From Verrucomicrobiota bacterium (GTDB taxonomy: Bacteria; Verrucomicrobiota; Verrucomicrobiia; Verrucomicrobiales; DEV007): DNA of 64,000 nucleotides. A model generated the notes under the pieces. That model made no database searches, was not told where the DNA came from, and saw nothing but the letters and a program-made list of their open reading frames with translations. Location: positions 138,474 through 202,473 of the forward strand of contig JAHDID010000003.1 of assembly GCA_020630975.1 (NCBI GenBank). Direction: 5' to 3'. Below, piece after piece: positions 4,758-40,932 of the stretch (position 1 is its first letter; the number at the start of each line of letters is the position of its first letter). A program made the translations under genes and the position numbers.

Positions 4758-5465
4758 ATGTCATCTCAGTCAGCACCCAAAAAGAGGAAGTACCGCTTTC
4801 CAGTCGCACCGATCACAGAAGCTATCCACTATCTGCCTGCGCTAGCTGCGCTGGAGGACGAGGGGAAATTGGATCGCAACACCATGGCCACAGCCTTGGG
4901 TTTTGAGGCATTGAATGAGCCTGCTCTTCAGGGGTTGGGGGCATTTTTCGCTTACCACATGGTCGAGCCCAAGCCGAGCGGCAAGCTAGCACTCACCGCT
5001 CTATCGAAGAAAATGCTCCAGAACGAGAGCGATCTCGAGGCGTTGCGTATTGCGGCTCTTTCGCCGCTGCTGTTTCGATTCTTTTGGAAGTCACTGCGCC
5101 AGATCTCGCTGGAAGAGCTAACCCAGCTGCTCATCTCGAAAGGCTTGAGCGAAGAGGATGCCGCCAAAGCGGTAGAGGTACACTCGACCAATGCTGAACT
5201 AGCCAAGCTGGACGAAGTGACCGAAGAACCCGCTGGCCTACCAGAGCCAAAGATCAATGCTCGCAGCGCTGCTCAGCGTGCTCGTCGCGCCGAGAAAAAA
5301 GCACAGAAAAACATGCTGAAGCTACCGCTGAAAAACGGGGCCATGATGATCCCTCGGGAAATCAGCGAGGAAGAGTACGAACTCATCCAAAAAACACTGA
5401 CACTCTGGAAAGACCAAATCGTAAAGCCAGAAAACAGTCTACCCGCAGAGGCAGCGACTCTGTAG
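4758..5465 (+). CDS. Unrecognised protein, possible DNA-binding regulator
   Basis: I do not recognise a named family for this 235-residue soluble protein. It has a basic N-terminus (PKKRKYRFP), a helical region around residues 20-130, and a very basic stretch RSAAQRARRAEKKAQKN near residue 175. The C-terminal segment LPLKNGAMMIPREISEEEYELI resembles short regions found at the end of some regulator or antitoxin-like proteins. No signal peptide or membrane segment is seen. The stop codon abuts the 3' end of the group II intron on the other strand, so the insertion may have altered the original 3' end. Confidence 0.65.
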   Translation: MSSQSAPKKRKYRFPVAPITEAIHYLPALAALEDEGKLDRNTMATALGFEALNEPALQGLGAFFAYHMVEPKPSGKLALTALSKKMLQNESDLEALRIAALSPLLFRFFWKSLRQISLEELTQLLISKGLSEEDAAKAVEVHSTNAELAKLDEVTEEPAGLPEPKINARSAAQRARRAEKKAQKNMLKLPLKNGAMMIPREISEEEYELIQKTLTLWKDQIVKPENSLPAEAATL

Positions 5466-5526
5466 TCGAGTAGACAAGGGCCTTCCAGGCTACTCTCGCA
5501 GCCCAGTTGCGCCCAAGCCCCTCTCA

Positions 5527-5560
5527 GAACCGGACAAGAGGATTTCCCTGCATACGGCTC
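5527..5560 (-). ncRNA. Group II intron domain V
   Basis: Read on the minus strand, this 34-nt segment starts GAGCCGTATG, carries a GAAA tetraloop region and ends CCGGTTC. This is the conserved catalytic hairpin with the AGC triad. It lies 14 nt after the reverse-transcriptase stop. Confidence 0.85.
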
Positions 5561-5573
5561 CTCATCTCATCTT

Positions 5574-6911
5574 TCAGAACGCCTGTCTCCATCCTTTCCC
5601 ACGACAGGGACACAGGTCTTTTCGGACTCCATGCATCGGCCAGTCCAGACGACTCTGCACTTGCCGATACCCTTCCCAAGTATAGCTATTTCGCTGACTC
5701 TTACGGTTGAGCCATTTGAACAATATGCGATCAGCATGATAGATATATTCTCCGCATCTCGGGCTGTTATCCGTGATGGCATAGTAGTTTAGATGGCCTA
5801 CGATGCGCCGCCGCGCTCCCCGTAGCATCTCGCCCTTCGTCATCCACCGACGTGATCTCTCACACCATATGGTGAATTTCCTCAAACTTGCCTGCAGCTT
5901 GCTCCGATTTGTCCGGCGTTTGACCTTGAAGTGCCCTTCCTTAGTCTTCCCACAGTAGTGGTCAAAGCCCAAAAAGGTAAACCCTTTGGGCTTCCCGCCT
6001 CGTCTCTTCGCATTGCTCCTGGCAAATCTACCAAACTCTAGCGTCTGGGTCTTTTCCTCTGCTACCTCGAGGTTGAAGCCTTCTAGCCTCTCCCGCAGTA
6101 GCTGCTCGAAGTGATAAGCATCATCTTTGTATTGAAAACAAGCTACAAAATCATCAGCAAAGCGAAAGATATGAGCCTCGCCTCGGCAATGCTTCGCCTT
6201 CACCCGCTTGTTAAACCAGAGGTCTAACACGTAGTGTAGGTATACATTGCTAAGCAACGGGCTCAATATCGATCCCTGTGGGGTGCCTTCCTCGTTTGCC
6301 TTTACTAGACCATCCTCTAGGATACCCGCTATCAAGAAACGCTCTATCAAGCGCAAGATGCGGTCGTCTCCTACTCGGTGGCGAAGAAACTTCATCAGCC
6401 AAGCATGATTCACTCGGTCGAAGAAACTGCGTATATCAGCCTCCACCACATAGCTCACCTTCCTTTTCTGAATCGTCTTACCCAGCTGGTCTAGGCAATC
6501 GTGTGGGCAGCGCCCTGGCCGATACCCGTAGCTACTATCCTCGAAGTCCTCCTCATATATCTGCTCTAAGACGTTTTTGATCGCTTTCTCCACGATCTTG
6601 CCCTCGAAGCTACCTATAGCCAGCGGACGCCCCTTTGCACTCCCCGGCTTGGGGATGTAGGTGCGCCTACTAGGCAGTGGCCGGTAGGCCATATCGCGTA
6701 GCTTCTGCGAGAGTATTCTGAGGTTTTCCTCCAGGTCTTCTGCATAGATGTCTTTATCTACACCATCTATCCCGACTGCCTTGCGGCGCTCGAGACTGTC
6801 GTAGGCGGCACGCAGATTATCGATGTCGTAGACATGGTGATACAGTGAGCTGAAGACTACCTCCGGCTCGTTGCGTGCTTTTGTTACTATCCGTGTCAGT
6901 GCTGTTGCCAT
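5574..6911 (-). CDS. ltrA: Group II intron-encoded reverse transcriptase/maturase
   Basis: The 445-residue protein has reverse-transcriptase blocks in order: RKAVGIDGVD, YIPKPGSAKGRPLAI, KNVLEQIYEEDFEDSSYGYRP, VVEADIRSFFD, EEGTPQGSILSPLLSN, RFADDFV and GFTFLGF. A maturase-like C-terminus follows. No HNH endonuclease domain is visible. The polymerase motif is FADD rather than the usual YADD; both aspartates are present, so activity is plausible. The protein would splice its host intron and prime reverse transcription at the target. ATG 6911 fits the conserved start of the family. It is probably expressed from the intron transcript. Confidence 0.93.
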   Translation of the reverse strand: MATALTRIVTKARNEPEVVFSSLYHHVYDIDNLRAAYDSLERRKAVGIDGVDKDIYAEDLEENLRILSQKLRDMAYRPLPSRRTYIPKPGSAKGRPLAIGSFEGKIVEKAIKNVLEQIYEEDFEDSSYGYRPGRCPHDCLDQLGKTIQKRKVSYVVEADIRSFFDRVNHAWLMKFLRHRVGDDRILRLIERFLIAGILEDGLVKANEEGTPQGSILSPLLSNVYLHYVLDLWFNKRVKAKHCRGEAHIFRFADDFVACFQYKDDAYHFEQLLRERLEGFNLEVAEEKTQTLEFGRFARSNAKRRGGKPKGFTFLGFDHYCGKTKEGHFKVKRRTNRSKLQASLRKFTIWCERSRRWMTKGEMLRGARRRIVGHLNYYAITDNSPRCGEYIYHADRILFKWLNRKSQRNSYTWEGYRQVQSRLDWPMHGVRKDLCPCRGKGWRQAF

Positions 6912-7652
6912 GGTTATATTTCACTCCCTGGGTAGTGTCCATGTTTCCCTGTCCACGGGTGTTGAGACGTGGGGACCTTCGCTCGGCGGGAGTTACACCG
7001 CTTCATCGCTAGACCGCTCCCCATCCCTAAGGGCGGATCATCTCGGCGGCTCCCCGGTGAGGTCGCCACTCGATACTCGGGGAGTTCATCCCCCAAGAAT
7101 CCTACCCTACGCCTGGTTGCTACATAGCCTCTGTCTACCTCGATACTGTCTGTGACCCCGCTGGACCGGAGCTGGCACTCGTCTATCGCGCACCAGCCCA
7201 TATAGGCTGCGCCAATCCGCATAGGATAGCCATCCAGATATTTCATAGACTTTCGGGGCTGTGGTTCAGATTCAAGGCATACACCCTTTACCTCTGTAGA
7301 CTCGGGACAGCAGATCCGTGCGAACACGGTTCTCCCACCCCTACTGGGCGGCTGACTAGGCCTTACCCAGAAGAGTTCAAGCTTTGCTTTACTCTCGCGG
7401 CTATGTTTCATTGCCAGGTTTATCGCAGAAGATCTAAATCTTCCGTCCGCAGCCTCTGAAACTCGGTATTATGAGAAATGCCGCTACGCGCAATAGGCTT
7501 CGATTTACTGGTTCAGTGGAAGCTGCGGGAAAAATGTGGAGGCGAGCGTCAGCGAGTGCCGTTTCGTATGGGGTATGCCTAGGTCTAATCCCCACTGAAT
7601 GGGTCCATTTCTGTCATGCCTCCTGCGCGGTGCTATTCTGTTTGGGCTAGAG

Positions 7653-8972
7653 CTAGTCCAGCACACCCTCCAGACTCGACCAGTCGCCCTGCTCGGCTGC
7701 AGGCAGCAGTCGCATATTTGGATACCAGGCGGTGTAGTCACCATCCTGAGACCAGCGCCAGTCGGCATACGGGGTCTGGATATTCCACACTGGCTTGCCC
7801 ATAGCTCCTGCGGTATGAGCGATCGCCATATCCGTAGAGACCACGAGATCCATGTGTGTCATGGCAGATCCCGCATCGGCCAGATCGGCGATCTCTTTGC
7901 CGAGGTGTTTCACCTGGTGGCGCTTTAGCATCTTGCGCTCGGGGCGAGTCAGGTCTGGCTGTATAGCTACGATTTCTGCCCCTTTAAAGATCTCACTCAT
8001 CCAGCTGAGCAGCTGCTCTAGCTCGTCACCTTTCAGGGAGCAGCAGCTCGCCTCATCGGATCGCCAGGCCACGCCTATCGTCTGGCCTTCGCCAGCAAAT
8101 CTCTCCGCTAGGTCGCTCGAGGCATCGCCAGCTAGGTAGTCGGTATCGCCAAAAGGCAGCTCACCTGGCTCGGTCCCGTAGAGGTGAGGCAGGGCGCTCA
8201 TCGATACCCAGCGATCATACTCCGCATCGCCGAGATCGGTGATGACTCGATCGATGCCATCGACCCGCGCCAGCAGCTCGGCGGTCTCTTCGCTCGCTAG
8301 CAGTAGGACGGTCTCTGGCTCCGCTGAGTCTCGCACCCAGCGAGCGTAGCGGCTGAATAATATCTGATCACTGGGGCTACCCTCTGCTCTTATCAGGATG
8401 CTCTGACCCTCGAGCGAGCCGCCAGTCCACTCGACTACCTCGGCAGGTGTCCGCTCGCTACTCTCTAGCCAGCTGCGGATACGATATTTCTCAAACCCCT
8501 CGCACCAGCGGCCATTTTGCAGCAGGGCTACCGCCAGCAGGTACTGCGCCTGTGGGTGATTGGGGATGCGCTCCAGCAGCTGGGATAGCAGGGCTTCGGC
8601 CTTTGCGATCTGGTTATTTTTCAGCAGGCAGGCGGCATACTTTAGGGATAGCTCAGCTCGCTCGGGCTGCTGCTCACTGGCCTCGCGTAGCGGCTGCAGC
8701 GCCTCGGCATGGCGCTGTGTGTCCATCAGGATCGAGCCATACTCGGCCTGTGCAGCGGCTAGTTTGGGATTCTCGTCGATCACTTCGGAGAGGATCTCCA
8801 GGGCTTCTTGGCTTTTCCCAGTTTTGGAGTAGGCCCATGCTTTTAGGTGCAGGGCCACAGGGTGATGTGGTGTGGTCTTTAGGACGGGGGCTACTTCAGC
8901 CAGGCAGGCATCCGTATCCTGTGACCGATGGGCCTCCAATGCTGGAGTCAGGTCAGGTATCGTGTTGGTCAT
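7653..8972 (-). CDS. TPR protein with C-terminal glycosyltransferase-like domain
   Basis: The 439-residue protein has about five tetratricopeptide repeats in its first 180 residues (for example AYSKTGKSQEALEILSEVID and LKNNQIAKAEALLSQLLERI). A C-terminal domain follows, with GVAWRSDE, HLGKEIADLADAGSAMTHMDLVVSTDMAIAHTAGAMGKPVWNI and WYPNMRLL. That end resembles the sugar-nucleotide domain of GT9/GT41-like proteins found downstream of TPRs in many bacteria. Transferase activity is inferred. ATG 8972 (MTNTIPDL) begins the first helix; the longer frame upstream looks non-coding. No signal peptide is seen, so it is probably cytoplasmic. The group II intron lies after its stop. Confidence 0.8.
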   Translation of the reverse strand: MTNTIPDLTPALEAHRSQDTDACLAEVAPVLKTTPHHPVALHLKAWAYSKTGKSQEALEILSEVIDENPKLAAAQAEYGSILMDTQRHAEALQPLREASEQQPERAELSLKYAACLLKNNQIAKAEALLSQLLERIPNHPQAQYLLAVALLQNGRWCEGFEKYRIRSWLESSERTPAEVVEWTGGSLEGQSILIRAEGSPSDQILFSRYARWVRDSAEPETVLLLASEETAELLARVDGIDRVITDLGDAEYDRWVSMSALPHLYGTEPGELPFGDTDYLAGDASSDLAERFAGEGQTIGVAWRSDEASCCSLKGDELEQLLSWMSEIFKGAEIVAIQPDLTRPERKMLKRHQVKHLGKEIADLADAGSAMTHMDLVVSTDMAIAHTAGAMGKPVWNIQTPYADWRWSQDGDYTAWYPNMRLLPAAEQGDWSSLEGVLD

Positions 8973-9166
8973 CTCGAAACTTTGATATTCAATAAACCCT
9001 AACCAATTACTGTCAATTCCGAGTGTTATCCGGATAGCGCGTCGATTCTTTGAGAAAAACAACCTGCCGCACCATTTGTCGGCATTTACGCCACTACCAT
9101 TCAGCGGCTCTGGGGTTTATCTGTCTGGAGTAGAGTGCCATATCCATCTTTCTTCTTTTTTCTTCC

Positions 9167-11434
9167 ATGAGAACAATCACCCACCAGATCATCTCGCTGC
9201 TAGCGGCTGCCGCCATGGTCAGCAGTCTCGCTGCCGCAGAGCAGACCACCAAAAAGAAGAAGACACCATCTCAGCGTATCGATGCCCTAGTGAAGCAGGG
9301 GCTGTCGGCTCAGGAGATGGAGCCAAACCCTAAGATCGATGATCATACCTTTGTCCGCCGGATCTACCTAGATATCGCGGGCCGCATCCCGACGCAGGAG
9401 GAGACCAGTGCTTTCGTCGAGCAAAAGCACCCCAAAAAGCGCGATCGCCTCATCGATGAGCTGCTCGAGTCCGATGCCTATGTGTCGAACTACTACCACT
9501 TCTGGGCCGATCTGCTGCGTGCCCGCACCGCCATCAATGGCAACAACCTCGGCTCTGGCTCGGGCCGCGCCTACGAGGCCTGGATCAAACAAGCTCTGCG
9601 CGAGAACAAACCCTACGATGAGATGGTGCGCGAGTTGATCACCGCCACCGGCCACAGCTGGGAGAATGGCGCCGTCGGCTACTACCTGCGCGACTACGGT
9701 ATGCCGCTCGACAATACCGCGATGACTGCCCAGGTCTTTCTCGGTACTCAGATCGTCTGTGCCCAGTGTCACAACCACCCTTTCGATAAGTGGACGCAGA
9801 TGGACTACTACCACATGGCGGCATTCACCTACGGGATGATGACTACCAATAATCTGCCGAGTGGCAACCAATCCGTCCAGCAGGCGATCGGCCAGATGCC
9901 GCGTACTAAGAACTTTTCTCAGGATCAGCAGCGCGAGCTGCGCCGCTCTTTCTCCGAGATCCTCAAGCCTGTGCGCTTCAACAACGTCATCGAGACCAAG
10001 CGCCGCGTGAAGCTGCCGCATGACTATGCCTACAGCGATGCCAAGCCCAAGAGCACCGTCAAGCCAGCCTCCATCATGGGGCCGGAGGCGGTCATCAGTC
10101 CCAACACACCGCTCTCCGAGAGTTTTGCCGATTGGCTGACCTCGCCGGAGAATCCGCGCTTTACCAAAGTCATCGCCAATCGCCTGTGGAAGCGTGCCTT
10201 TGGTCTGGGGCTGATCGAGCCGGTCGACAATATCACCGATCGCACCACCGCATCGAATCCCGAGCTACTCGATTACCTCGAGCAGCTATTACGCGATCTC
10301 GACTACGATATGCGCGCCTACCTGGCTGCTATCTACAAGTCGCAGTCCTACCAGCGTGCCGCCACGCTCGAGGAGCACCCGCTCGGGGCGCCCTACTACT
10401 TTCAGGGCCCTATCCTGCGCCGCATGACGTCTGAGCAGGTGTGGGATTCGCTAGTCGGTATGTTTCGCGAAGATCCCGATAGTCCCGACGAGATGTGGGA
10501 GCTGAAAGGCCGCGGCGAGATCCTGCGCCGCCAGATAGTCGGCGAGGCGATCTACAACCAGCCTGCCAAAGCTATCGTCAAGCACGGGCTCAATATCCGC
10601 GAGGTGCAGGGTCAGCTATCCGAGCGTATCGATGCAGCGGTAGCTCAGCTCACCGAGGCGCGAGAGACTGGCGATCAGGAAAAGATCTCTGCGGCCACTA
10701 GAGAAGTGCAGAAGGTGCGCCGCGAGCTGGTCGTGCAGATCGAGCGCCAGGTCTACCTAGCAGGGCTGCAGCACGGTCTCGACAAGCCGCAGAGCCTTAG
10801 CTCCGAGGAGTCAGAGCAGCTATTCACCGAGCTAGCCGCCTACATCCAGGAGCAAAAGCCCGATAGCGAGATGACCAGTGTCGAGTCGGTCATCGATGCC
10901 GAGGGCGGTATCATCCGCGATATCACTCAGGGACTACTGGCCAAAGACCTTAAAGCGCTGCGCTCCAAGCAAGAGAAGCAGAAGGATGCGGCTATCGAGC
11001 GCTGGGGTGTCGATACCAAGCAAGAGAAAGTCTCATTCAAAAATTTTGCCCTCGGCTACACGCGCTTCATCCGCGCCTCCGAGATGCCATCGCCAGCACC
11101 CGCAGGTCACTTTCTCCGCGAGTTTGGCCAGAGCGACCGCGAGATGATCAATAACTCTAATGACCAAGCCGCTGTCACCCAGGCACTGACCATGCTCAAT
11201 GGTCAGCTAGGCTTCGCCCTAGCCAATCCCTACTCCAAGCTCTCCCGAGCGATGAAAGGTATGAATGGCAAAGAGCGGCTCGAGCATCTTTACCTATCTT
11301 TCTACAGCCGCCCGCCGAGCGACTACGAGCTAAAGCTATTTCAACAATCCTGGAAATCCGATCCCGAAGCCGCTTCCTTTTCCAGTATGGCCTGGACGCT
11401 GCTGAATACTAGGCAATTCCTCTTCGTAAACTAA
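9167..11434 (+). CDS. Secreted DUF1549/DUF1553 protein
   Basis: The 755-residue product has a signal peptide (residues 1-23, SLAAAEQ). The DUF1549 region starts at DHTFVRRIYLDIAGRIPTQEE. A single CAQCHNHPFDKW (CxxCH, possible heme c site) precedes a DUF1553 region: ESFADWLTSPENPRFTKVIANRLWKRAFG, NPELLDYLEQLL, then a conserved C-terminal NTRQFLFVN. These families are large exported proteins of planctomycetes and verrucomicrobia, of unknown biochemistry and often next to sulfatases. Unlike the paralogue at 40933 it lacks the N-terminal PSCyt1 cytochrome domain. It forms a pair with the following DUF1501 gene, separated by 58 bp that hold the 21-bp repeats. Confidence 0.92.
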   Translation: MRTITHQIISLLAAAAMVSSLAAAEQTTKKKKTPSQRIDALVKQGLSAQEMEPNPKIDDHTFVRRIYLDIAGRIPTQEETSAFVEQKHPKKRDRLIDELLESDAYVSNYYHFWADLLRARTAINGNNLGSGSGRAYEAWIKQALRENKPYDEMVRELITATGHSWENGAVGYYLRDYGMPLDNTAMTAQVFLGTQIVCAQCHNHPFDKWTQMDYYHMAAFTYGMMTTNNLPSGNQSVQQAIGQMPRTKNFSQDQQRELRRSFSEILKPVRFNNVIETKRRVKLPHDYAYSDAKPKSTVKPASIMGPEAVISPNTPLSESFADWLTSPENPRFTKVIANRLWKRAFGLGLIEPVDNITDRTTASNPELLDYLEQLLRDLDYDMRAYLAAIYKSQSYQRAATLEEHPLGAPYYFQGPILRRMTSEQVWDSLVGMFREDPDSPDEMWELKGRGEILRRQIVGEAIYNQPAKAIVKHGLNIREVQGQLSERIDAAVAQLTEARETGDQEKISAATREVQKVRRELVVQIERQVYLAGLQHGLDKPQSLSSEESEQLFTELAAYIQEQKPDSEMTSVESVIDAEGGIIRDITQGLLAKDLKALRSKQEKQKDAAIERWGVDTKQEKVSFKNFALGYTRFIRASEMPSPAPAGHFLREFGQSDREMINNSNDQAAVTQALTMLNGQLGFALANPYSKLSRAMKGMNGKERLEHLYLSFYSRPPSDYELKLFQQSWKSDPEAASFSSMAWTLLNTRQFLFVN

Positions 11435-11447
11435 CCAAATCGCCCAA

Positions 11448-11485
11448 TTCAATAGGGTACAATTTTTATTCAATAGGGTACAATC
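11448..11485 (+). repeat. 21-bp-periodic repeat, locus 1 (two units)
   Basis: Two copies of TTCAATAGGGTACAAT(T/C) begin at 11448 and 11469, exactly 21 bp apart. They fill the gap between the DUF1549/DUF1553 stop and the DUF1501 start, ending 7 bp before the ATG. The same unit recurs at 40853 and, inverted, at 51506. Confidence 0.85.
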
Positions 11486-11492
11486 AAAGAAT

Positions 11493-12776
11493 ATGAGCCA
11501 AAGTGACCTATCCAGACGCCACTTCGTAAATCGCGCCGCGAAGACTTTCCTAGGAGTATCGGCTCTAGGCGGACTACCTGCAGGTCTACACGCTGCGGGC
11601 AAAGGCGCCTCCGATCTGCGCATGGAGAATCCCACCGCCAAACGAGTCATCTACCTATACATGACTGGTGGCATGTCGCATATCGACACCCTAGATCCAA
11701 AGAAGCCAGGTAGCGAAGTGATGGGGCCTAATAAGCGCCTATCCACCGCAGTCGATGGTATGCGCTTCACCGACAATCTGCAACGCCTGCGCAAACACGC
11801 CGACAAGCTGGCTGTGATCAATAGCATGACGTCGACCCAGGGCGCGCACAAACAGGGCAACTACTACATGCACACCAGCTACGAGATGCGTAGCTCCATC
11901 CGCCACCCAGCCATGGGAGCGTGGATGCTCCAGTTTCAGGGCAAGGGCAATCCCGAGATACCGGGCAATGTGCTCCTAGGTAATGATTCCAATCACCCCG
12001 GTGCAGGCTTTCTGCCCTCGCGCCTCTCTCCCGTATCGCTCACCGACCCGGCTGGAGGTCTGCGCAATGTCGAGCAGCGCCTAGCTGATGATCGATTCGA
12101 TTTTCACCTCGATCTCGCTCAGAAGCTCGATCAACCATTCGTCGAGAAGTACGATCAAAAAAACGTGCGTGCCTACACCGACATGTACGACGACGCCATC
12201 ACCCTGATGAAGAGCAAAGACCTCAAGGCATTTGATCTATCTCAGGAGCCGGAGAAGCTCAAAAAAGCCTACGGCACCGGCCGCTTTGGTCAGGGCTGTC
12301 TACTCGCCCGCCGCCTGATCGAGCACGATGTCCGCTACGTCGAGGTCTCCTACGGCAGCTGGGATACCCATGCCTCGAACTTTGTGAATGTGCCCGAGCG
12401 CGCCGAAGAGCTCGACCAAGGCATGAGCACCCTACTAGCCGATCTAGAGCGCCGCGGACTACTAGAGGATACCCTAGTCGTCCTAGCCACCGAGTTTGGT
12501 CGCACCCCAGAGATCAACCAGAATGAGGGCCGCGACCACCATCCCCAAGCCTTTTCCTGTGCCCTAGCCGGCGGCGGCATCAAAGGCGGCACCGTCTACG
12601 GCAAGACCGACGAGCGCGGCGCCGAGATTCTAGAAAATCCAGTAGAGATACCCGACCTAAACGCCACCATCGCCTACGCCCTAGGCATGCCCCTCAATCA
12701 GGTAGTATATAGCCCCAGCATGCGACCATTCACCATTGCTGATAAGGGTAAGCCTGTGGTGGATTTGTTTGGGTAG
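11493..12776 (+). CDS. DUF1501 protein with Tat signal
   Basis: The 427-residue product begins with a twin-arginine signal (SRRHFVNRAAKTFLG, cleavage after LHAAG), so folded export is likely. Family landmarks are VIYLYMTGGMSHIDTLDPKKPG, the cluster GRFGQGCLLARRLIEHDVRYVEV, WDTHASNF, LATEFGRTPEIN, GRDHHPQAFSCALAGGGIKGGTVYG and IPDLNATIAYALG. DUF1501 proteins belong to the alkaline phosphatase/sulfatase superfamily but lack the formylglycine motif; the substrate is unknown. It is almost certainly co-expressed with the preceding gene, since the two families are repeatedly found together. The start follows the 21-bp repeats by 7 bp, with no clear Shine-Dalgarno sequence. Confidence 0.92.
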   Translation: MSQSDLSRRHFVNRAAKTFLGVSALGGLPAGLHAAGKGASDLRMENPTAKRVIYLYMTGGMSHIDTLDPKKPGSEVMGPNKRLSTAVDGMRFTDNLQRLRKHADKLAVINSMTSTQGAHKQGNYYMHTSYEMRSSIRHPAMGAWMLQFQGKGNPEIPGNVLLGNDSNHPGAGFLPSRLSPVSLTDPAGGLRNVEQRLADDRFDFHLDLAQKLDQPFVEKYDQKNVRAYTDMYDDAITLMKSKDLKAFDLSQEPEKLKKAYGTGRFGQGCLLARRLIEHDVRYVEVSYGSWDTHASNFVNVPERAEELDQGMSTLLADLERRGLLEDTLVVLATEFGRTPEINQNEGRDHHPQAFSCALAGGGIKGGTVYGKTDERGAEILENPVEIPDLNATIAYALGMPLNQVVYSPSMRPFTIADKGKPVVDLFG

Positions 12777-12938
12777 GGCAGCTTAGGGTAGCTTCAAATC
12801 CTGCAGTAAGTCCTATAGGAGTCTTTCGGGATCGCTCAAATCAAAATGGCTGCGCCCAAAAACTGCTCTCAGTATCCCTAGTGTTATATTTAATTCTTGG
12901 TTGAAAAAATAATCCGAGATCGATACAATCAGCATTTG

Positions 12939-14624
12939 ATGCAAAGACCTTGTTTCCTAATTGTTTTATTGTTAACTGCGTTCTCACATTATAGCACCGC
13001 TTTTAGCGCACCTTCTGGAGCTAAAGAGTTTGGCGGCAACCATTACCAAGTAGAGAAGGTTAGAGATCCGGTCACTTGGGATGAGGCGCAGGCTAAGGCA
13101 GAGGAGTTGGGTGGTCACCTTGTTAGCATTGAAGCGCCGAGCGAACTGGACTTCGTAAAAGAGTTAACCGAAAGTGAAAGAGGTGAGAGGATTTGGATTG
13201 GTGCCTTCAGAGATTCGGGTCAGAAATGGCAGTGGGTCAATGGAGAGCCAGTAACACTCCAAGTGAATGGGTCTTTTTCGGATTGGCGCACGCGTGTGAT
13301 GTTAGGGCCAAAAGGGGTTATATGGGGAGCTAGAGATACTAGCCTGTTCGAGTATTTCGTTGTGGAATATCCAAAAGAAAAGCCAACGCTCACGCTGCCT
13401 GCGCAAGAGACTCCAACAGAAGAGGATGCGGATACATCCGAGGATGAAATCGAGTTAACAGATGCATTTATTGCTGGTAATGAGTTTGCTAATGAGATTC
13501 CATTAGTAAGATCGCAAACCAAGGTGAACGGTCTTTTGGTGCTGTCTTTGTTGAGTTCTGAGCAGGCAGGCTCTGCTTCACCTATGACGCTTTCTGCTCT
13601 AAGTGGCGATAAATCCGCAGCTGCTTCAGTCAAGTTTAATCAAGGTGTTGGCCCCATGATGAGTAAAGCCTTGCATGAGGTTGTTAAATTCACGGAGCTG
13701 CGCCATGAAGGCTGGCCAAAGGGCAAGCAGATAGAGATTTCATTTGAAAACAAATACAATCCCAAAGATGGCCCCTCTGCTGCTGTCGCATGTGCTCTGC
13801 TACTCGAATCAGCTATCAAAGGGCACGATATTGATCCAGGTTTCGCGGTGACAGGGGACTTGAATGCAGACGGCTCCGTCCAACCTGTCGGCGGTATTGA
13901 TGCTAAAGTTCGCGGGGCAAGCAAGAGGAGTTGTACACACGTCGCAATCCCCGAGAAGAATACCGTTGATGTTTATGATACTGTGCTAATGAAGGGCTAT
14001 GGTCCGATCACCGAAATACAGGTATTTTCGATCAGTGACTTCGATCAAGCCGATGCCTTGGCTAAGGTTGAGAAAGATCAGATCGTCGCAAACAGCATAG
14101 CAAATTTCCAGAAGATCACTAGTGTATACGAAAAAAATCCGACTGGGTTTGCTCGAACCCTTTCGCATCCAAAGATGATCTTACTACTTGAAGAGATTCT
14201 CGAGGGAACGCCTAATCATCTATCGGCGAAAATTTTATTGGATCATGCAAAGGGTAATGCTCCCAAGTCGTTATCTGTCCACGGTTCGACGGCATTCATC
14301 GAGCGGGAAGCTTATTCTATTACTGATGTTATTGATAATAAAGGCAAGGTGGGTAAACTAAGCGCGCTCAGTGGTAACCAGGTTGTTGAGGCTATAAGCC
14401 TTCTCCGTAACAGCAAAAATAAACTTGATGAGCGTACTTGGAAGTGGGCGGGGCAGTTGATTCATTTTGGCACACTGCTCAATAGGCTGCAGACAAATCC
14501 CCCCAGCTCTGTGAATCAGCACAATAAACTAGTAGCGGAGATTAATGCAGCCGGTGACGCTGTCCGAGCAGAAAGACGAAATTTATTCAACAGCCCTGAG
14601 GTGATGGAGGAGCTTCTCCAGTAG
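12939..14624 (+). CDS. Exported C-type lectin / Lon-type (S16) protease fusion
   Basis: The 561-residue product starts with a signal peptide (MQRPCFLIVLLLTAF...AFSA). A C-type lectin-like domain follows (about 30-150: TWDEAQAKAEELGGHLVSIEAPSE, IWIGAFRD, WQWVNGEP, FVVEYP). After an acidic linker (about 160-180) comes an S16 Lon-type proteolytic domain. Ser280 in KDGPSAAVACALL and Lys323 in PVGGIDAKVRGA form the dyad; their 43-residue spacing equals that of E. coli Lon (S679/K722). No AAA+ domain is present. The last 150 residues are helical and unassigned. Start 12939 was chosen because it opens the signal peptide. Base composition is AT-richer than in flanking genes. Confidence 0.85.
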   Translation: MQRPCFLIVLLLTAFSHYSTAFSAPSGAKEFGGNHYQVEKVRDPVTWDEAQAKAEELGGHLVSIEAPSELDFVKELTESERGERIWIGAFRDSGQKWQWVNGEPVTLQVNGSFSDWRTRVMLGPKGVIWGARDTSLFEYFVVEYPKEKPTLTLPAQETPTEEDADTSEDEIELTDAFIAGNEFANEIPLVRSQTKVNGLLVLSLLSSEQAGSASPMTLSALSGDKSAAASVKFNQGVGPMMSKALHEVVKFTELRHEGWPKGKQIEISFENKYNPKDGPSAAVACALLLESAIKGHDIDPGFAVTGDLNADGSVQPVGGIDAKVRGASKRSCTHVAIPEKNTVDVYDTVLMKGYGPITEIQVFSISDFDQADALAKVEKDQIVANSIANFQKITSVYEKNPTGFARTLSHPKMILLLEEILEGTPNHLSAKILLDHAKGNAPKSLSVHGSTAFIEREAYSITDVIDNKGKVGKLSALSGNQVVEAISLLRNSKNKLDERTWKWAGQLIHFGTLLNRLQTNPPSSVNQHNKLVAEINAAGDAVRAERRNLFNSPEVMEELLQ

Positions 14625-14860
14625 TAGTATCGCGGATTGTTGGTCAATAAATATGGGCTTCGATGTTTTTGGTGAAATTTATTGCGGTATGTACCATATG
14701 TTCATCTTGATGGTCGGGAAACAGTTGTGTCTCGGTTTTCAGATATAGCAGTAGCCGATCAATGTATGCCTAGAGTGCAATTTCCTGAGTGTTAGGCAGG
14801 TTCGCTATGGATGCGCCATTTTTTGGTCATGTTTATGGATGTTGGTGATTTGTAGATGTC

Positions 14861-14903
14861 TGATTGAGTTGTTGCCTATGATTTTCCGAAATTAACTCAA
14901 TCA
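14861..14903 (+). promoter_or_regulatory. Perfect 10-bp inverted repeat over the SGNH gene start
   Basis: TGATTGAGTT (14861-14870) and AACTCAATCA (14894-14903) are perfect inverted copies, 23 nt apart. The second arm includes the first base of the ATG at 14903. It may be an operator or an RNA stem that hides the ribosome-binding region. Confidence 0.5.
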
Positions 14904-16021
14904 TGAAATACTATCTAAATGTAAGGCATTTTCTCGCGATCGCTATCCTAGCGATAGGTGGGGCGGTATCACTTGCCTCCCCGTTCACTCCACCTGTGGA
15001 GATGCAGTCGATCTTCTTAGACGAGGTCTCTTCGACTGAGTGGTACTGGATGGAAGATTTCTACGGTTTAGCTGAAGGGCGGATCTACGAGTTTTCTTTT
15101 GAGATCCGAAAAGAGCCGGGCTGCTCTGCCCAGGGTGCTTTCGTCAGCGTCATGTCTTATGTGGCTGACACAGGAAAAAAGAAAGAAAACTACCTGCTAG
15201 CAGAACGCCTCGGATCGGATGTGCCTGCCGACGGAAAATGGCATAAGGTATCCGGAAAGTTCAAAACTGAGGCTCCGGCAGGCAAAACATTCGTCCGCAA
15301 TGTGAATGATGCATTCCGCGCCTCCCTGATCCTCTACAACAAGGGGAGAACAGGTAAGGCGGTTTCGATACGAGAGTTCTCGGGGGCTCCGAAATACGTC
15401 ACCTATGATTACCTAGGTGAAAAAGATCCTGATCTGCCCCAGATCCTGCTGATCGGCGATAGTACGATGATGCATACCTACACAGCCAAAGTGAAGGCTT
15501 TTGCCGGACAGGCTGCGATCTATTACATCCCTGTGAACGCTGGATTAACCAAAACATCGATCCGCAAATACCGTCGCTGGGTAGGCGAAAAGAGATGGGA
15601 TGTGATCTATTTCAACAGCGGTATCCACGATCTCACTAGGCAGGATGACAAAGGCAAAAAGTCCGACGACCAGCCCAATCGAACGCCTATCGATGAGTAT
15701 CAAGAAAACCTAAGGCTGATCGCGGACTTCTTAAAGACCACAGATGCCGATCTCATCTGGAGAAGTATCACGCCATTCCGGGATGGTGTAGCAGGGCGGT
15801 CGAACACAGATATGGAAATCTACAACGCCCGCGCGGAAAAGGTGATGAAGGCTGCGGGTATCCCGATACACGCTGTCACTGCATCCCATCGAGATGAGCT
15901 GCGCGCCCTGTCCAGCGATGGTGTGCATTTCAGCCGTGAAGGTAACGAACTACTCGCACAGCTATTGAAGGATTATCTCGCTGAAACGGGGATACTCAGT
16001 GCGGATCAGCACCCCAAATAG
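14903..16021 (+). CDS. Exported SGNH/GDSL hydrolase with N-terminal beta domain
   Basis: The 372-residue product has a signal peptide (about 1-25). An N-terminal beta-rich region (about 30-165) looks like a carbohydrate-binding module (GRIYEFSFEIRKEPG, DGKWHKVSGKFKT). An SGNH hydrolase domain follows. The catalytic residues are Ser187 in LLIGDSTMM, and Asp339 and His342 in SSDGVHFS. The Asn/Gly-type block is FNSGIHDL, with Gly-Ile in place of the common Gly-x-Asn. The family includes acetyl-xylan and other carbohydrate esterases, so de-acetylation of a glycan is inferred. A perfect inverted repeat spans its start. A palindromic element follows the stop. Confidence 0.85.
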   Translation: MKYYLNVRHFLAIAILAIGGAVSLASPFTPPVEMQSIFLDEVSSTEWYWMEDFYGLAEGRIYEFSFEIRKEPGCSAQGAFVSVMSYVADTGKKKENYLLAERLGSDVPADGKWHKVSGKFKTEAPAGKTFVRNVNDAFRASLILYNKGRTGKAVSIREFSGAPKYVTYDYLGEKDPDLPQILLIGDSTMMHTYTAKVKAFAGQAAIYYIPVNAGLTKTSIRKYRRWVGEKRWDVIYFNSGIHDLTRQDDKGKKSDDQPNRTPIDEYQENLRLIADFLKTTDADLIWRSITPFRDGVAGRSNTDMEIYNARAEKVMKAAGIPIHAVTASHRDELRALSSDGVHFSREGNELLAQLLKDYLAETGILSADQHPK

Positions 16022-16042
16022 AAGGCAAAGTCGGCTGATCCA

Positions 16043-16250
16043 GTGCTCATGGGCGACGCCTGATGGGCTTATGCAGTCCGGCGACGGGACGTGCGCCGCT
16101 CCTTGAGCGTGAGTCTGCGTAGTCCAGCCTACGAGTACAAGGAGGGGCTGCCTTCAGCTGCCCGGCTACCTCCGCCGAAGCCTATGGCTCAGCCTGCCGG
16201 GCAGCTGAAGGCAGCCCCTCCTTGATTTTGATTCTTCGCCCTTATCACGG
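16043..16250 (+). repeat. Palindromic element, copy A
   Basis: Arms 16138-16166 and 16196-16224 (CAAGGAGGGGCTGCCTTCAG... and its inverse) are perfectly complementary over 29 bp around a 29-nt loop. Upstream, 16043-16140 matches, inverted, the segment 18490-18590 of copy B. The trailing TTGATTCTTCGCCCTT is shared with copies B and C. It lies between the SGNH esterase and the third sulfatase. Confidence 0.9.
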
Positions 16251-16290
16251 TCTATTCCTTGAGGGGATTTCTGATTATGATACGCCATCT

Positions 16291-17781
16291 ATGATTCGAT
16301 TTTTCCATACTATTGCTGTGGGTCTTTTCACCCTATCGCCAGCAGTCGCCGAGTCCGATCGGCCCAATATCATCTTCCTGCTGGCTGATGACATGGGCTA
16401 CGGCGATTTGGGGTGTTATGGTTCGCCGGTGATCCAGTCTCCTCATCTGGACCAGCTCGCATCCGGGGGTATACGACTGACTCAGTGCTACGCTGCCAGT
16501 CCGAATTGCTCGCCAGCGCGCGCTGGTATGCTGACGGGGCGGTCACCCTACCGAGTGGGTATGTATGACTTTGCCCGGTTCCCGGCTTTGCACATCCCGA
16601 CCGCCGAGACCACGGTGGCAGAGTTGTTGAAGGACGCGGGGTACGCGACTCTGTTTGCGGGGAAATGGCATTGCTCGGGAGATTTTAGCTCGGGCAAGCA
16701 GCCCTACCCAGGTGATCATGGCTTTGATCATTGGCTGGCGGCGAAAAGCAACTTTGGTAAAGATCCCAAGGGATTCCTGCGCAATGGTGAGCCTGTCGAA
16801 AAGCTAGAGGGCTGGATGAGCGAGATCGTCGTCGACGAGGCGATCGAGTGGCTCGACCAGCGGGATAAAGAGCAGCCGTTTTTCACTTGCCTGTGGTTTA
16901 GCGAGCCGCACACCCCAGTGCTAGCTGCCGATGAATTTCGCGAGCTGTATCCAAAGGAGGTCATAGCACCCCATCTCGAGGCGCTGAAGATCTCTGGCGG
17001 TCCACAAGTGGTCCGCCGGGACAAGCTGCGCGACCCCGATCTCTACTTTGGCTGTGTGAGTATGCTCGATCATCATATCGGCCGCCTGATGAGTTATCTC
17101 AATGAGCACGGACTCGCAGAAAATACCCTGGTGGTATTCACCTCGGACAATGGCCCCGAGCATCGCACGGCCACCGCATTCGGCAGCTCCGGACATCTGC
17201 GCGGTGCCAAGGGGCACATCCACGAGGGCGGCATCCACGTGCCGGGTATCGTCCGCTGGCCAGCTCGCCTGAAAGAGGCGGGCACTTCTAGTGCAGAGCC
17301 GGTCAATGGCACAGACTGGCTACCCACCCTATGCGCGGCGGCCGGCATCACTCCCGAGCCGGTAGCCGACAAGCACATAGATGGGGCAAATGTCCTGCCC
17401 GCTCTCCTAGGCACTGGCGATACTCAGCGCCCACACCCCATGCTCTGGTGGCTGTGGCACGCCCGAGGCGGCTACGAGGTAGCGATGCGCGATGGCGATT
17501 ACAAGCTGCTGGCCACCATGCTACCGCAGAAAAATCCCGGCGACATCAGAGATGCCGTGCAGCCCGATGACTGGACCGTCATGGAGTTTATCAAGAAAGC
17601 GGACCTCGGCCGCTTCGAGATGTTTGATCTCGCCAAAGATCCATCAGAAACCACCAGCCTCGCTGAGGTAGAGAAAGAGACCTTTGAAAGACTAAAGCAA
17701 AAGATGATCAAGTTACACGCAGAGATCCGAGCCGAAGGTCCTAGCTATTCTTTATCGCGCAAACCGAAAAAGCAGAAGTAG
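16291..17781 (+). CDS. Secreted arylsulfatase-like sulfatase
   Basis: The 496-residue product has a signal peptide (1-20, SPAVA-ES). It then shows NIIFLLADDMGYGDLGCYG with Asp33-Asp34 and NCSPARAGMLTGRSPYRVG with formylglycine-precursor Cys73. GKWHCSGDF, FTSDNGPEHR and GGIHVPGIVRWP complete the sulfatase core. The C-S-P-A-R variant and ADDMGYGDLGCYG are typical of the arylsulfatase A/N-acetylgalactosamine sulfatase branch. ATG 16291 opens the signal peptide, and the 23 upstream in-frame codons partly overlap the palindromic element. It may act on the same glycan as the esterase upstream, but this is inference. Confidence 0.92.
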   Translation: MIRFFHTIAVGLFTLSPAVAESDRPNIIFLLADDMGYGDLGCYGSPVIQSPHLDQLASGGIRLTQCYAASPNCSPARAGMLTGRSPYRVGMYDFARFPALHIPTAETTVAELLKDAGYATLFAGKWHCSGDFSSGKQPYPGDHGFDHWLAAKSNFGKDPKGFLRNGEPVEKLEGWMSEIVVDEAIEWLDQRDKEQPFFTCLWFSEPHTPVLAADEFRELYPKEVIAPHLEALKISGGPQVVRRDKLRDPDLYFGCVSMLDHHIGRLMSYLNEHGLAENTLVVFTSDNGPEHRTATAFGSSGHLRGAKGHIHEGGIHVPGIVRWPARLKEAGTSSAEPVNGTDWLPTLCAAAGITPEPVADKHIDGANVLPALLGTGDTQRPHPMLWWLWHARGGYEVAMRDGDYKLLATMLPQKNPGDIRDAVQPDDWTVMEFIKKADLGRFEMFDLAKDPSETTSLAEVEKETFERLKQKMIKLHAEIRAEGPSYSLSRKPKKQK

Positions 17782-17783
17782 GC

Positions 17784-17807
17784 AAAACGTGATTACCAGC
17801 GTTTTTT
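17784..17807 (+). terminator. Possible weak terminator after the third sulfatase
   Basis: AAAACG and CGTTTT form a 6-bp stem with a 10-nt loop, running into a T6 tract just after the stop at 17781. Confidence 0.4.
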
Positions 17808-17850
17808 AACTGCCAAATTGATACCAGGGATTGAAGGCCTCACTTCTGAA

Positions 17851-18306
17851 ATGGAAAGCCTCATCTTTATTGTCTCTTTACTTGGGTTGGGGTACATATG
17901 GATTCTCGTTTCTAATCGCCTTGACGAATACAGAACAAAGAGGCTCCTTGCTAGATTAGCTCTTGAGAGAAAAGAGGGCTTTGATGAATTTTGGAAATTT
18001 TCCTCTCAGGCATTCTCGAAAGAAGTTGGGGAATTTATGTACTCGCTGATAAGAGAGTTTATAAATGAACTCGATTTCCATCCCGACTTCCCATTACGTC
18101 CAGGCGACAAGCTATTGAAAATCTTGGGCAATAATGAGTATTACTCCGAATACATCTTCGATATTACGGTAGAAGAGTTTGTAGAAAGTGAATTTGAGGA
18201 GAACTTTTTTGTTTTCCCTCAACTAGTCAACAAGACAGTCGAAGAGTTGATCTCCTTCACTGAGTCTTTCATTTTGAAACACCCGAATATGGCAAAGCAG
18301 AACTAG
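17851..18306 (+). CDS. Unrecognised small membrane-anchored acidic protein
   Basis: No family is recognised for this 151-residue protein. It has one N-terminal hydrophobic segment (SLIFIVSLLGLGYIWILVS, about residues 3-21), a basic stop-transfer region (RTKRLLARL) and an acidic helical body. The middle, FPLRPGDKLLKILG...ITVEEFVESEF, loosely resembles the acyl-carrier-like DUF1493 layout, but I cannot assign it. ATG 17851 is chosen; an in-frame TTG at 17818 would add 11 residues. The gene is clearly more AT-rich than the sulfatase before it, which suggests separate ancestry. Confidence 0.6.
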   Translation: MESLIFIVSLLGLGYIWILVSNRLDEYRTKRLLARLALERKEGFDEFWKFSSQAFSKEVGEFMYSLIREFINELDFHPDFPLRPGDKLLKILGNNEYYSEYIFDITVEEFVESEFEENFFVFPQLVNKTVEELISFTESFILKHPNMAKQN

Positions 18307-18410
18307 CGACCAACTACATGCTAGGAGCCTTTTGGCGCAATCCATTGGGTACATCCAAAGGCTTTGGCAAACCTGCCTGTGATATTTTTTGAGCCTGCAT
18401 CTATATGGCT

Positions 18411-18653
18411 CAGGGAGGGGCTGCCTTCAGCTACCCGGCAGGCTGAGCCATACCCTTCGGCCGAGGTAGCCGGGCGACGAGACGTCGCCCCTCCTTGTGC
18501 CTGTAGGCGAGACTGCGCAGACTCACGCCCAAGGAGCGGCGCACGTCCCGTCGCCGGGCTTGCATTAGCCTATCAGCCGTCGTGCATGGGCAACGGGCTC
18601 AGCCTGCTAGGCAGCTAAAAGCAGCCCCTCCTTGGGCTTGATTCCTTGCCCTT
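18411..18653 (+). repeat. Palindromic element, copy B (longest, with nested palindrome)
   Basis: The ends 18411-18449 and 18595-18634 are imperfect inverted copies of about 40 bp (CA(A/G)GGAGGGGCTGC...GCAGGCTGAGCC). Inside, 18469-18497 and 18530-18560 form a second inverted pair around the core GCGACG(A/G)GACGT. The interior 18490-18590 is the reverse complement of 16043-16140. The whole 18307-18663 gap is otherwise without a gene. Confidence 0.88.
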
Positions 18654-18663
18654 TTCCAGCTGA

Positions 18664-19494
18664 CTATAGACAACTGTTCCTCTCCCGCCAATCACTAGGT
18701 GAATAGCCGGTCTGTTTCTTAAACCAACGGCAAAAGTAATTTTGATCCGCTAGCCCCACCTCGGTAGCCACCTCACCCACTGGTCTATCCGGAGATTCCC
18801 TCAACTGCTGCTGGGCGATGCGTAGCCGCTCTCTGCCGATCAGTTGGCCGACGCTCGGCGAGCCTTCCTGCGTCAACTGGCGAGTGAGCTGATTAGGCTC
18901 AGTATCCAGAGCCTGCGCCACAGTCCTAGGCGACCATGCTTCGGTGGATGTCTTTTTCAGAAGTCGTAGCACTTGCCACTCGCAGCTACCTTTACTCGGG
19001 GCGGTCGCTTCTTTACTCGGTGCAGCTGCTTCTACCAGCGCAGCGACCATTCGCAAGATCTCAGCAGCAGCGGCATAACTACTGGGTGCAGGCTGCTGCG
19101 CCAACCTGAGCAAGCTCCGCTCCACCGTTTTCATGGCATTGGGCGGTAGCCGCTGCACCCCAGCGAAGGGCAAGCCACTGCCAGTGCAGGTGATCGTAAG
19201 CACGAGAGGTGGATACTTTCGCCGCTTGCGAAAGCCGTGCCGTACACCTGCTGGGATCACAAAGAAATCACCCCGCTGCGCTGCATACTCCTCTTGGTGA
19301 TCTGGAAACGATTGAGTCCCCTCGCCTTTCAGATACAAAAGCAATTGGTCGGAGTCATGTTGATGAGCCGCCACCTTTTGCGTGGTTGGCAGGTGCTGGT
19401 TCACTTGGAGACTCTGCACACGCAAGCCTTCCACCTCGATCTCCAGATCGCTGAAAAGGAGTGAGCGAAACAACTCAGGATCGAGGTTTTTCAT
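18664..19494 (-). CDS. AraC-family transcriptional regulator with cupin domain
   Basis: The 276-residue protein has an N-terminal cupin-like sensor (HQHDSDQLLLYLKGEG, RGDFFVIPAGVRHGF). The C-terminal AraC/XylS DNA-binding domain (about 180-275) has the two helix-turn-helix regions SPRTVAQALDTEPNQLTRQL and EVATEVGLADQNYFCRWFKKQTGYSPSDWR. It would bind a small, probably sugar-derived, ligand and control nearby glycan genes; the target is unknown. ATG 19494 is chosen over GTG 19500. It is divergent from the chondroitin-lyase remnant at 19570. An inverted repeat, ATTAGCAC/GTGCTAAT, overlaps its start. Confidence 0.9.
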   Translation of the reverse strand: MKNLDPELFRSLLFSDLEIEVEGLRVQSLQVNQHLPTTQKVAAHQHDSDQLLLYLKGEGTQSFPDHQEEYAAQRGDFFVIPAGVRHGFRKRRKYPPLVLTITCTGSGLPFAGVQRLPPNAMKTVERSLLRLAQQPAPSSYAAAAEILRMVAALVEAAAPSKEATAPSKGSCEWQVLRLLKKTSTEAWSPRTVAQALDTEPNQLTRQLTQEGSPSVGQLIGRERLRIAQQQLRESPDRPVGEVATEVGLADQNYFCRWFKKQTGYSPSDWRERNSCL

Positions 19495-19526
19495 TAGCAC
19501 ACATTTTCATGTTTTATGGTGCTAAT
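19493..19526. promoter_or_regulatory. 8-bp inverted repeat at the araC-type start, possible autoregulatory site
   Basis: ATTAGCAC (19493-19500) and GTGCTAAT (19519-19526) are perfect inverted copies, 18 bp apart, between divergent genes. The left arm overlaps the start codon of the regulator. Confidence 0.45.
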
Positions 19527-19569
19527 CAAGCCGCTAATCTCGGTCATAGTGGCAAAGTTCTAAGACCTA

Positions 19570-20484
19570 ATGAAATTCCTCCGACGTACCGTTCTGATTC
19601 TATCTTGGATGGGGGTAGCAACGATCCTACGGAGCGCTTCTGTTTCAGCACAGACCACTAACTCCGTGAAGATGACTCCTTCAGAGCTGGTTCGGCTCGA
19701 ACCCGAGGATGTCCCCGAGAAGGTGCATCTGACTGAAGTCAAATCCAGCTACTCAGGGTATGACCTAGTGACGCCTGTTGATATAGAGGCCTACATCCTA
19801 GACACGATTCCGAGATACTGGGTGTGCGAGGGAGGTGGAAAACTGACTGTAAGCTCCGAGCGATCAGGAGCTGGGCTTAAGTCGATTCGCTGGGACTGGG
19901 TGAAAGGGAGCGTACTGAGGATAAAAAACCTAGGGATGATGACTCACTCGGAGATCACCAATCAAGATGGCCGTGGTCTCGGCAATGGTGAGGCCTATCG
20001 GCCTCCGTTTAGCTTGGCTGGATATCAGGAGGCTAAGGCTCAAGAAAACATGGCGTTTCACCTGTATTACCAGCGCATCCACAAGGAGCATAAGCATGGA
20101 GAGTTCGAGCCTGTGAAGATGCAGCTGCGCCAATACGCTAATCCAGTGAATTTTTGGTTCGACCTATCTGGTGTGGCGTTTGATAAGCAGGAAAGGCGTT
20201 TCTACAACCAAGAGGTACTTCGAGAGATGCCGACGGGAGTACCAGAGCCTGAGATAAATGAGCTGATCATTCAAGCCCCGAGCGATGTTGCCTCGGGCAC
20301 ACTGTTCCTCGATCGGCTGCTGGTAGCCGCCTCTAAGGTGTCTAACCTAAAGTCCAACCTTTGTCTTGCCCAAGAACTGATTTGCGAAATGCGACGCTAT
20401 TTCAGGGTGTCGGTTACTTTTTGCGATATTTTGTGTCAGCTAGACAGTTCCTTACAGTTAAGGGTAGGGAATGGACGAATTTGA
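19570..20484 (+). pseudogene. Truncated chondroitin/polysaccharide lyase (N-terminal domain only)
   Basis: The 304-residue ORF has a signal peptide (about 1-28). A domain matching the N-terminal jelly-roll of chondroitin ABC-type lyases (PL8 group) follows. Landmarks are GGGKLTVSSERSGAGLKSIRWDW, FSLAGY, NMAFHLYYQ, NFWFDLSGVAF, LREMPTGVPEPEINELIIQ and GTLFLDRLLVA. After about residue 258 the resemblance ends and the last 46 residues look like read-through of non-coding DNA. The catalytic alpha-toroid and C-terminal domains (roughly 700 further residues) are missing. The reading frame also runs 14 bp past the start of the sigma-factor gene at 20471. It is most likely a gene remnant; a stand-alone binding protein is less likely. 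Confidence 0.72.
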
Positions 20485-28951: not shown

Positions 28952-29060
28952 CAAGGAGGGGCTGCCTTTAGCTGCCCGACAACCTCGGCCGAAGCATATG
29001 GCTCAGCCTGCCGGGCAGCTGAAGGCAGCCCCTCCTTGAGCTGAATTCTTCGGCTTTAAT
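28952..29060 (+). repeat. Palindromic element, copy C
   Basis: Arms 28952-28979 and 29011-29038 are inverted copies over about 28 bp with one or two mismatches (CAAGGAGGGGCTGCC...). The trailing TGAATTCTTCGGCTTT matches the tail of copies A and B. It sits inside a probable operon, 14 bp before the next start codon at the nearest point. Confidence 0.9.
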
Positions 29061-40890: not shown

Positions 40891-40932
40891 TATTCGAATC
40901 ACATTCGAGCTTCTGGAGTTTACTCCTTTGTG

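Follow-up and report, generated by a model that had tools for sequence, protein, structure and literature searches.

The gene at positions 12939 to 14624 of the DNA analysed here raises the question of what a Lon-type (S16) serine protease domain may be doing in a protein which has a signal-peptide-like N-terminus, carries a C-type-lectin-like domain (CTLD) ahead of the protease and shows no AAA+ motor. To our knowledge, studies of extracytoplasmic Lon-type catalysis have centered on a handful of PDZ-S16 proteins from Firmicutes. The window, i.e., the whole stretch of 64,000 nucleotides that was analysed, belongs to the genome of a Verrucomicrobiota bacterium of the order Verrucomicrobiales (assembly GCA_020630975.1, contig JAHDID010000003.1, positions 138,474 to 202,473 of the forward strand), and positions given without a locus name refer to it. 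On balance, we favor the reading that the gene encodes an exported, ATP-independent S16 serine protease, which would be placed by its N-terminal module and would act in the envelope or extracellularly.

Gene and domain architecture of the CTLD-S16 protein

The gene and the features of its product are the following:

12939..14624, +, CDS of the CTLD-S16 protein, 561 aa (ATG start; homologues found)
12939..13010, +, signal-peptide-like N-terminus, residues 1-24 (best 11-residue hydrophobicity, 3.01)
13008..13379, +, CTLD, about residues 24-147 (Pfam, predicted structure, and motif alignment; no Cys, EPN/QPD, or WND)
13380..13505, +, linker, about residues 148-189 (modelled with low confidence)
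13506..14078, +, S16 (Lon-type) protease domain, about residues 190-380 (Pfam, profile against PDB, and fold)
13776..13778, +, codon TCT of Ser280, the presumed catalytic Ser in KDGPSAA
13905..13907, +, codon AAA of Lys323 (presumed catalytic; motif GGIDAK)
14079..14621, +, conserved helical C-terminal domain, about residues 381-561 (models and conservation)

We regard this open reading frame as a real coding gene because its homologues span the whole length; an alternative in-frame TTG at 12897 would extend the product to 575 aa. The first-pass annotation described the gene as AT-rich, which is correct although not extreme, the GC content of 0.470 being the third lowest among the 42 ORFs of the window (mean, 0.548; sd, 0.046).

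An AlphaFold2 model built from a seven-row alignment reached a pLDDT of 70.9 and a pTM of 0.57, with parts of the S16 domain at low confidence, and a second model was weaker (pLDDT, 59.3). In these models of moderate quality, the folds of both domains that had been singled out for structure prediction were recovered. Model residues 1-122 match CTLD folds, the best of them being NKp80 (Z 17.6; rmsd 1.9 over 115 residues). The first model matches the catalytic domain of Escherichia coli Lon (1rr9_A) with a Foldseek E value of 7.5e-8 and a TM score of 0.68 by target length; the rmsd of this top match is 9.2 over 189 columns, while several further Lon entries give 2.5 to 3.6 over about 150. The S16 part of the second model is most similar to mitochondrial Lon 6x27 (Z 10.4; rmsd 4.0 over 159 residues), followed by other Lon proteases at Z 9.4 to 9.9; a Foldseek search with the same model returned no match at E <= 0.001, its best entries being again Lon proteases at 1.2e-3.

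Both models render the C-terminal 180 residues as helical; the structural comparisons made with them barely cover this domain. Profile searches found no convincing relative in the PDB (best E value of a 22-sequence profile, 0.0018, to a designed helical protein), and in Pfam the matches were scattered over 16 families, at E values of up to 0.1, with none for the window's own segment.

The S16 domain and its Ser/Lys dyad

Pfam assigns residues 263-347 to Lon_C (PF05362) with 54 bits against a cut-off of 21.1 (E 2.2e-14). The only further family at E <= 1, apart from the lectin family described below, is ChlI (PF13541), which overlaps the S16 part and remains under its cut-off (21 bits versus 27). 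A profile of the family matches in the PDB the Lon of Thermococcus (E 1.3e-21), the Lon domain of Archaeoglobus fulgidus (1.4e-19), and the TTC1975 peptidase. Together with the Lon folds of the models, these matches bear out the S16 domain that had been proposed. Ser280 and Lys323 align with the dyad of the canonical Lon encoded in the same genome and lie 43 residues apart, exactly as in that Lon, whose spacing is taken up to the second Lys of GGLKEK, so that the Lon-like dyad spacing reported earlier is confirmed. The claim that the AAA+ domain is missing also stands: neither an AAA+ nor a PDZ model of Pfam matches the protein at E <= 1, and the Walker A motif GxxxxGK[ST] is not found in it.

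The conservation of the dyad was evaluated on an alignment of 85 rows (A1) drawn from 89 distinct ORFs, in which locus L001 is replaced by the window protein. The canonical Lon (L005) was left out, as were L062 4950-5585, L092 2253-4313, and L082 742-2616, which are fragments or poorly aligned paralogues; in these last three ORFs, the dyad is absent or its region is not covered. The dyad is complete in 74 of the 85 members, with a spacing of 43 in 73 of these 74 and the K[DG]GPS motif in 70, and both residues are present in all five CTLD-bearing members. The remaining 11 members are without Ser, Lys, or both, and therefore the S16 scaffold can serve without catalysis. The persistence of these 11 in genomes, and the inactivity in vitro of an anchorless S16 protein of Bacillus subtilis, YlbL (see below), would suit an exported S16 fold which is a binding scaffold or a chaperone rather than a working protease. 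We deem this very improbable for the window protein, given that 74 of 85 members and the whole CTLD clade have the dyad and that 9 of the 11 exceptions have replaced both residues, most of these 9 falling into two groups of the tree. Ser280 and Lys323 are presumed to be the catalytic residues.

Predicted export of the protein

The N-terminal sequence MQRPCFLIVLLLTAFSHYSTAFSA resembles a Sec signal, and cleavage would perhaps occur after about residue 21 or 24. By a crude, self-made hydrophobicity criterion, a signal-peptide-like start is found in 65 of 83 family ORFs, compared with 3 of 83 control segments taken from their C-terminal parts; some of the 18 ORFs that failed probably did so through mis-set starts. 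The signal peptide attributed to the protein in the first-pass annotation is therefore in line with the N-termini of its family. A few members carry lipobox-like cysteines, the clearest of seven pattern matches being those of loci L035, L063, and L071.

The protein could instead stay in the cytoplasm, either because its hydrophobic N-terminus is a signal anchor which leaves the domains on the inner side or because the true start lies further downstream. Two members, L042 and L044, do begin with anchor-like stretches, though these too could face outward. Here the hydrophobic core is short and small residues come after it, as is typical of cleaved signals, and this feature, the agreement of 65 of 83 members with a signal, and the lipobox-like sites in some of them leave a cytoplasmic protein with hardly any likelihood. 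The CTLD-S16 protein is apparently exported.

Distribution and modularity of the family

When the CTLD-S16 protein was used as the query, 61 of 141 related genomes had a match at E <= 1e-15, the canonical Lon of its own genome scoring 4.7e-10. Within the order, at least 118 of 386 genomes match at E <= 1e-30, and at least 187 of 387 genomes of the phylum match a profile of the S16 and C-terminal domains at E <= 1e-10; these counts are lower bounds since three and five candidates per genome were scored in the order and phylum searches, respectively. Near end-to-end profile matches (319 bits or more) number at least 13 in nine of the 387 phylum genomes, all of them in the order of the window. 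Those of the weaker matches listed that fall outside the order are confined to parts of the profile between positions 11 and 244, and most of them lie in frames of roughly 800 residues, the picture that canonical Lon would give. The family is apparently uncharacterized and has so far been seen only in Verrucomicrobiales. Among viral contigs, a single weak S16-like locus was detected (L127; 47% over 60 residues).

As judged from the sequences, the architecture of the family is an export signal, an exchangeable N-terminus, the S16 domain, and the helical C-terminal domain. N-termini of at least 60 residues cluster into groups of 24, 14, 5, 5, 4, and 2 members plus 16 singletons, one of which is the canonical Lon; the N-terminal modules vary between groups, while the S16 and C-terminal domains are constant. 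Thirteen members of 390 to 404 residues have a signal-like start, with the S16 core setting in at residue 26 to 40. Ten N-termini were scanned against Pfam, and only one reached a cut-off, that of locus L070 (500-2773), in which a CBM96 carbohydrate-binding module precedes the S16 domain.

Members of the CTLD form fall into a single clade (SH-aLRT, 100) consisting of the window protein, its paralogue L002, and L007 to L009, in a quick tree supported by SH-aLRT only and having several long branches. L007, L008, and L009 each have two CTLDs, whereas L002, which is 56% identical to the window protein, has a degenerate CTLD detected by a local profile alone (E 6.9e-7). Matches reaching into the CTLD occur in at least 4 of 33 genomes of the genus and at least 4 of 386 of the order, so that the homologues with the same domain order that had been called for do exist, in one clade. 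In the titles and abstract openings that we searched, covering few subscription journals, no lectin-S16 fusion was found, Verrucomicrobial or other.

Dyad-less paralogues and tandem pairs

In five genomes (G000, which is that of the window, G004, G041, G042, and G053), a paralogue without the dyad immediately precedes, on the same strand, an intact member, at gaps of -4 to +1 bases, and these upstream copies have both residues replaced. The pair of the window's genome (L040:6157-9416; contig C129:192156-195415) overlaps; in its upstream copy Ser and Lys are replaced by Gly and Arg, and the downstream one is intact. The same tandem arrangement is found in G047 (gap of 3; upstream copy poorly aligned at the dyad), and G024 also has a tandem pair (gap of 2; upstream copy cut off ahead of the dyad); in both genomes, a dyad-less copy ahead of an intact one is probable. 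In other tandem pairs (G008, G101, and G122), both members are intact, while in G115 one of three tandem members has Lys replaced by Arg and in G045 both members are without the motifs. The upstream paralogues L004, L047, L064, and L078 form one clade (SH-aLRT, 100).

From their sequences, the dyad-less upstream copies could be inactive partner subunits, and their pairing makes the regulation of S16 assemblies by inactive subunits testable. No dyad-less partner stands beside the window's CTLD-S16 gene. At the start of contig C97 of the same genome (L039:1-150), there is a 34-residue tail of a family copy, 68% identical to the window protein; since it lies directly upstream of the paralogue L002, tandem copies probably stood there.

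Genomic surroundings

The CTLD-S16 gene stands alone, a DUF1501 gene ending 162 bases before it and an SGNH gene beginning 278 bases after it. It had been placed between glycan-related genes, which is half right according to Pfam: an SGNH/GDSL protein and a sulfatase are encoded downstream, whereas the upstream genes encode DUF1501 and DUF1549/DUF1553 proteins. The proximity of DUF1501 says little because the genome has 65 matches to this family. Genes of the DUF1549/DUF1553, DUF1501, and DUF1585-1595 families recur within the window, at 9167-12776, 22575-25154, and 40930-43368.

The sulfatase, DUF1501, and DUF1549 genes also have relatives near the CTLD-S16 gene of G006, at up to about 6 kb from it, in an order and orientation that differ from those of the window; the CTLD-S16 gene of G031 has none of the three at this distance. 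The loci of G025 and G031 share an ABC-F and an IspE-like neighbor (both named from reading the sequences) and two more. The idea of a conserved operon was discarded, since clustering of the neighbors gave none common to all CTLD-S16 loci and only partial sharing.

The CTLD fold is the usual target of diversity-generating retroelements according to PMC10907252, and therefore we searched for their repeats and reverse transcriptases. Three families of direct repeats were found in positions 8000-20000, none of which touches the CTLD. The genome has six reverse transcriptase matches, of which the one within the window, a 445-aa ORF at 5574-6911 (- strand), is flanked by Rfam group II intron matches (RF02005 at 7146-7378 and RF00029 at 5465-5562; intron at 5465-7378, - strand) and is therefore the reverse transcriptase of the intron. 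A retroelement of this type acting on the CTLD-S16 gene was thus rejected. The window also contains MITE- or REP-like intergenic repeats with inverted ends (16138-16224, 18411-18497, 18596-18656, and 28958-29032), whose 19-base core has six matches with at most three mismatches, compared with a mean of 0.04 in shuffled sequences.

The CTLD and its possible ligand

Pfam Lectin_C matches residues 45-116 with 42.2 bits against a cut-off of 22.6 (E 1.5e-10), in agreement with the predicted fold. The EPN/QPD and WND motifs are the signature of Ca2+-dependent sugar-binding C-type lectins; many CTLDs bind proteins, and sugar-binding CTLDs without these motifs are exceptions. In our alignment, neither EPN/QPD nor WND is in place in any of the eight fused CTLD copies, including that of the window, which is also without cysteine, and the WND string in the first CTLD copy of L009 sits earlier than the place of the motif. 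Hence, calcium-dependent glycan binding by the window CTLD is unlikely, and its ligand may be a protein rather than a glycan. The same genome encodes a 209-aa stand-alone CTLD protein with a signal-like start (L128:1165-1794; contig C129), which in the same alignment has EPT and WND where the sugar and calcium motifs belong.

The earlier proposal that the protease is directed to a glycan or glycoprotein is weakly supported. A true lectin docking the protease on such a ligand would accord with that fold, with the CBM96 module ahead of S16 in one relative, with the SGNH and sulfatase genes downstream, and with the sulfatase relatives near the CTLD-S16 gene of G006. We nevertheless consider it unlikely: the motifs are not in place in any of the fused CTLDs, whereas the stand-alone protein has EPT and WND, CBM96 was the one N-terminal module of ten to reach a Pfam cut-off, and the neighbors differ in order and orientation between G000 and G006 and are other ones in G025 and G031.

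Proposed mode of action

For the exported S16 protease that we favor, the following course can be put forward. The protein would leave the cytoplasm by Sec export. Its S16 domain would probably form a ring-like oligomer, as assumed from Lon, which would be held together by the S16 domain and perhaps by the helical one. The Ser280/Lys323 dyad would then cut proteins of the envelope, of the surface, or outside the cell in segments that are unfolded or accessible, and the CTLD would be the binding module which decides what the protease acts on or where, by contact with a protein more likely than by calcium-dependent contact with a sugar.

A broader proposal, which we put forward only tentatively, is that Verrucomicrobiales possess a dedicated extracytoplasmic, ATP-free counterpart of Lon, made up of S16 rings with exchangeable modules (CTLD, CBM96, helical, or other), in some genomes with a co-translated dyad-less partner, of which the CTLD form might be aimed at a particular surface ligand. 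If true, S16 proteases would have been freed from the ATP motor and be working in the envelope of another phylum.

Comparison with known S16 systems

There are precedents for an extracytoplasmic, ATP-free S16 protease, which the first-pass annotation regarded as unusual: YlbL (PMC6051672) and SepM (PMC11197336) were already known without an AAA+ domain. YlbL of B. subtilis is a transmembrane protein with PDZ and Lon-type S16 domains and no AAA+ domain, likely extracellular according to its authors, and its function needs the putative catalytic residues (PMC6051672). It shares with the window protein an S16 domain with a putative Ser/Lys dyad and a non-ATPase module replacing the motor; like YlbL, the window protein would lie outside the cytoplasm. 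It differs in having PDZ where the window protein has the CTLD, in its membrane anchor as opposed to a cleavable-looking signal, and in the C-terminal helical domain, which is not among the three domains given in the paper. When purified without its membrane anchor, YlbL was inactive as a protease in vitro (PMC6051672), and therefore an intact dyad is no guarantee of an easily shown protease.

SepM of Streptococcus mutans, likewise composed of transmembrane, PDZ, and S16 parts, is located at the cell surface and cleaves the signal peptide CSP-21 (PMC11197336). It resembles the window protein in having an S16 domain with a Ser/Lys dyad and no AAA+ among its listed domains, and differs by its PDZ module and its C-terminal S16 domain. 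Its peptide substrate, along with the solitary position of the CTLD-S16 gene, would fit a narrow processing protease, acting on a precursor or a pheromone or mainly on itself, instead of a degrading enzyme. With the window protein, the NCBIfam model of SepM (NF041438) reaches 18.6 bits, its cut-off being 200, and is outscored by the LonB/LonA models, which yet stay far below their own cut-offs (e.g., 53.3 versus 723.3), and we consider such a processing role decidedly improbable.

The hexameric MtaLonC degrades unfolded proteins without ATP (PMC3391209). The LonC type is thus an ATP-independent S16 protease as well, and the family profile matches the protease part of the TTC1975 peptidase. The difference lies in a large N-terminal fragment of possible AAA-like fold, and export does not appear in the abstract (PMC3391209); about 190 residues (signal, CTLD, and linker) precede S16 in the window protein, while the protease part of TTC1975 starts from about residue 496. 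With LonA and LonB, the window protein has in common the S16 domain, its fold, and the dyad spacing of 43; these enzymes have AAA+, in contrast to the export signal, the CTLD, and the extra C-terminal helical domain found here. A 2008 survey of S16 architectures includes Lon_C alone and PDZ-Lon_C, and the word "lectin" is absent from its main text. Compared with Lectin_C domains in general, the likeness of the window copy is in fold and profile, and the difference in its missing cysteines and motifs. S16 proteases outside the cytoplasm without AAA+ being already known from YlbL and SepM, the CTLD-S16 protein would be a variant of this kind, with the CTLD in the place of PDZ.
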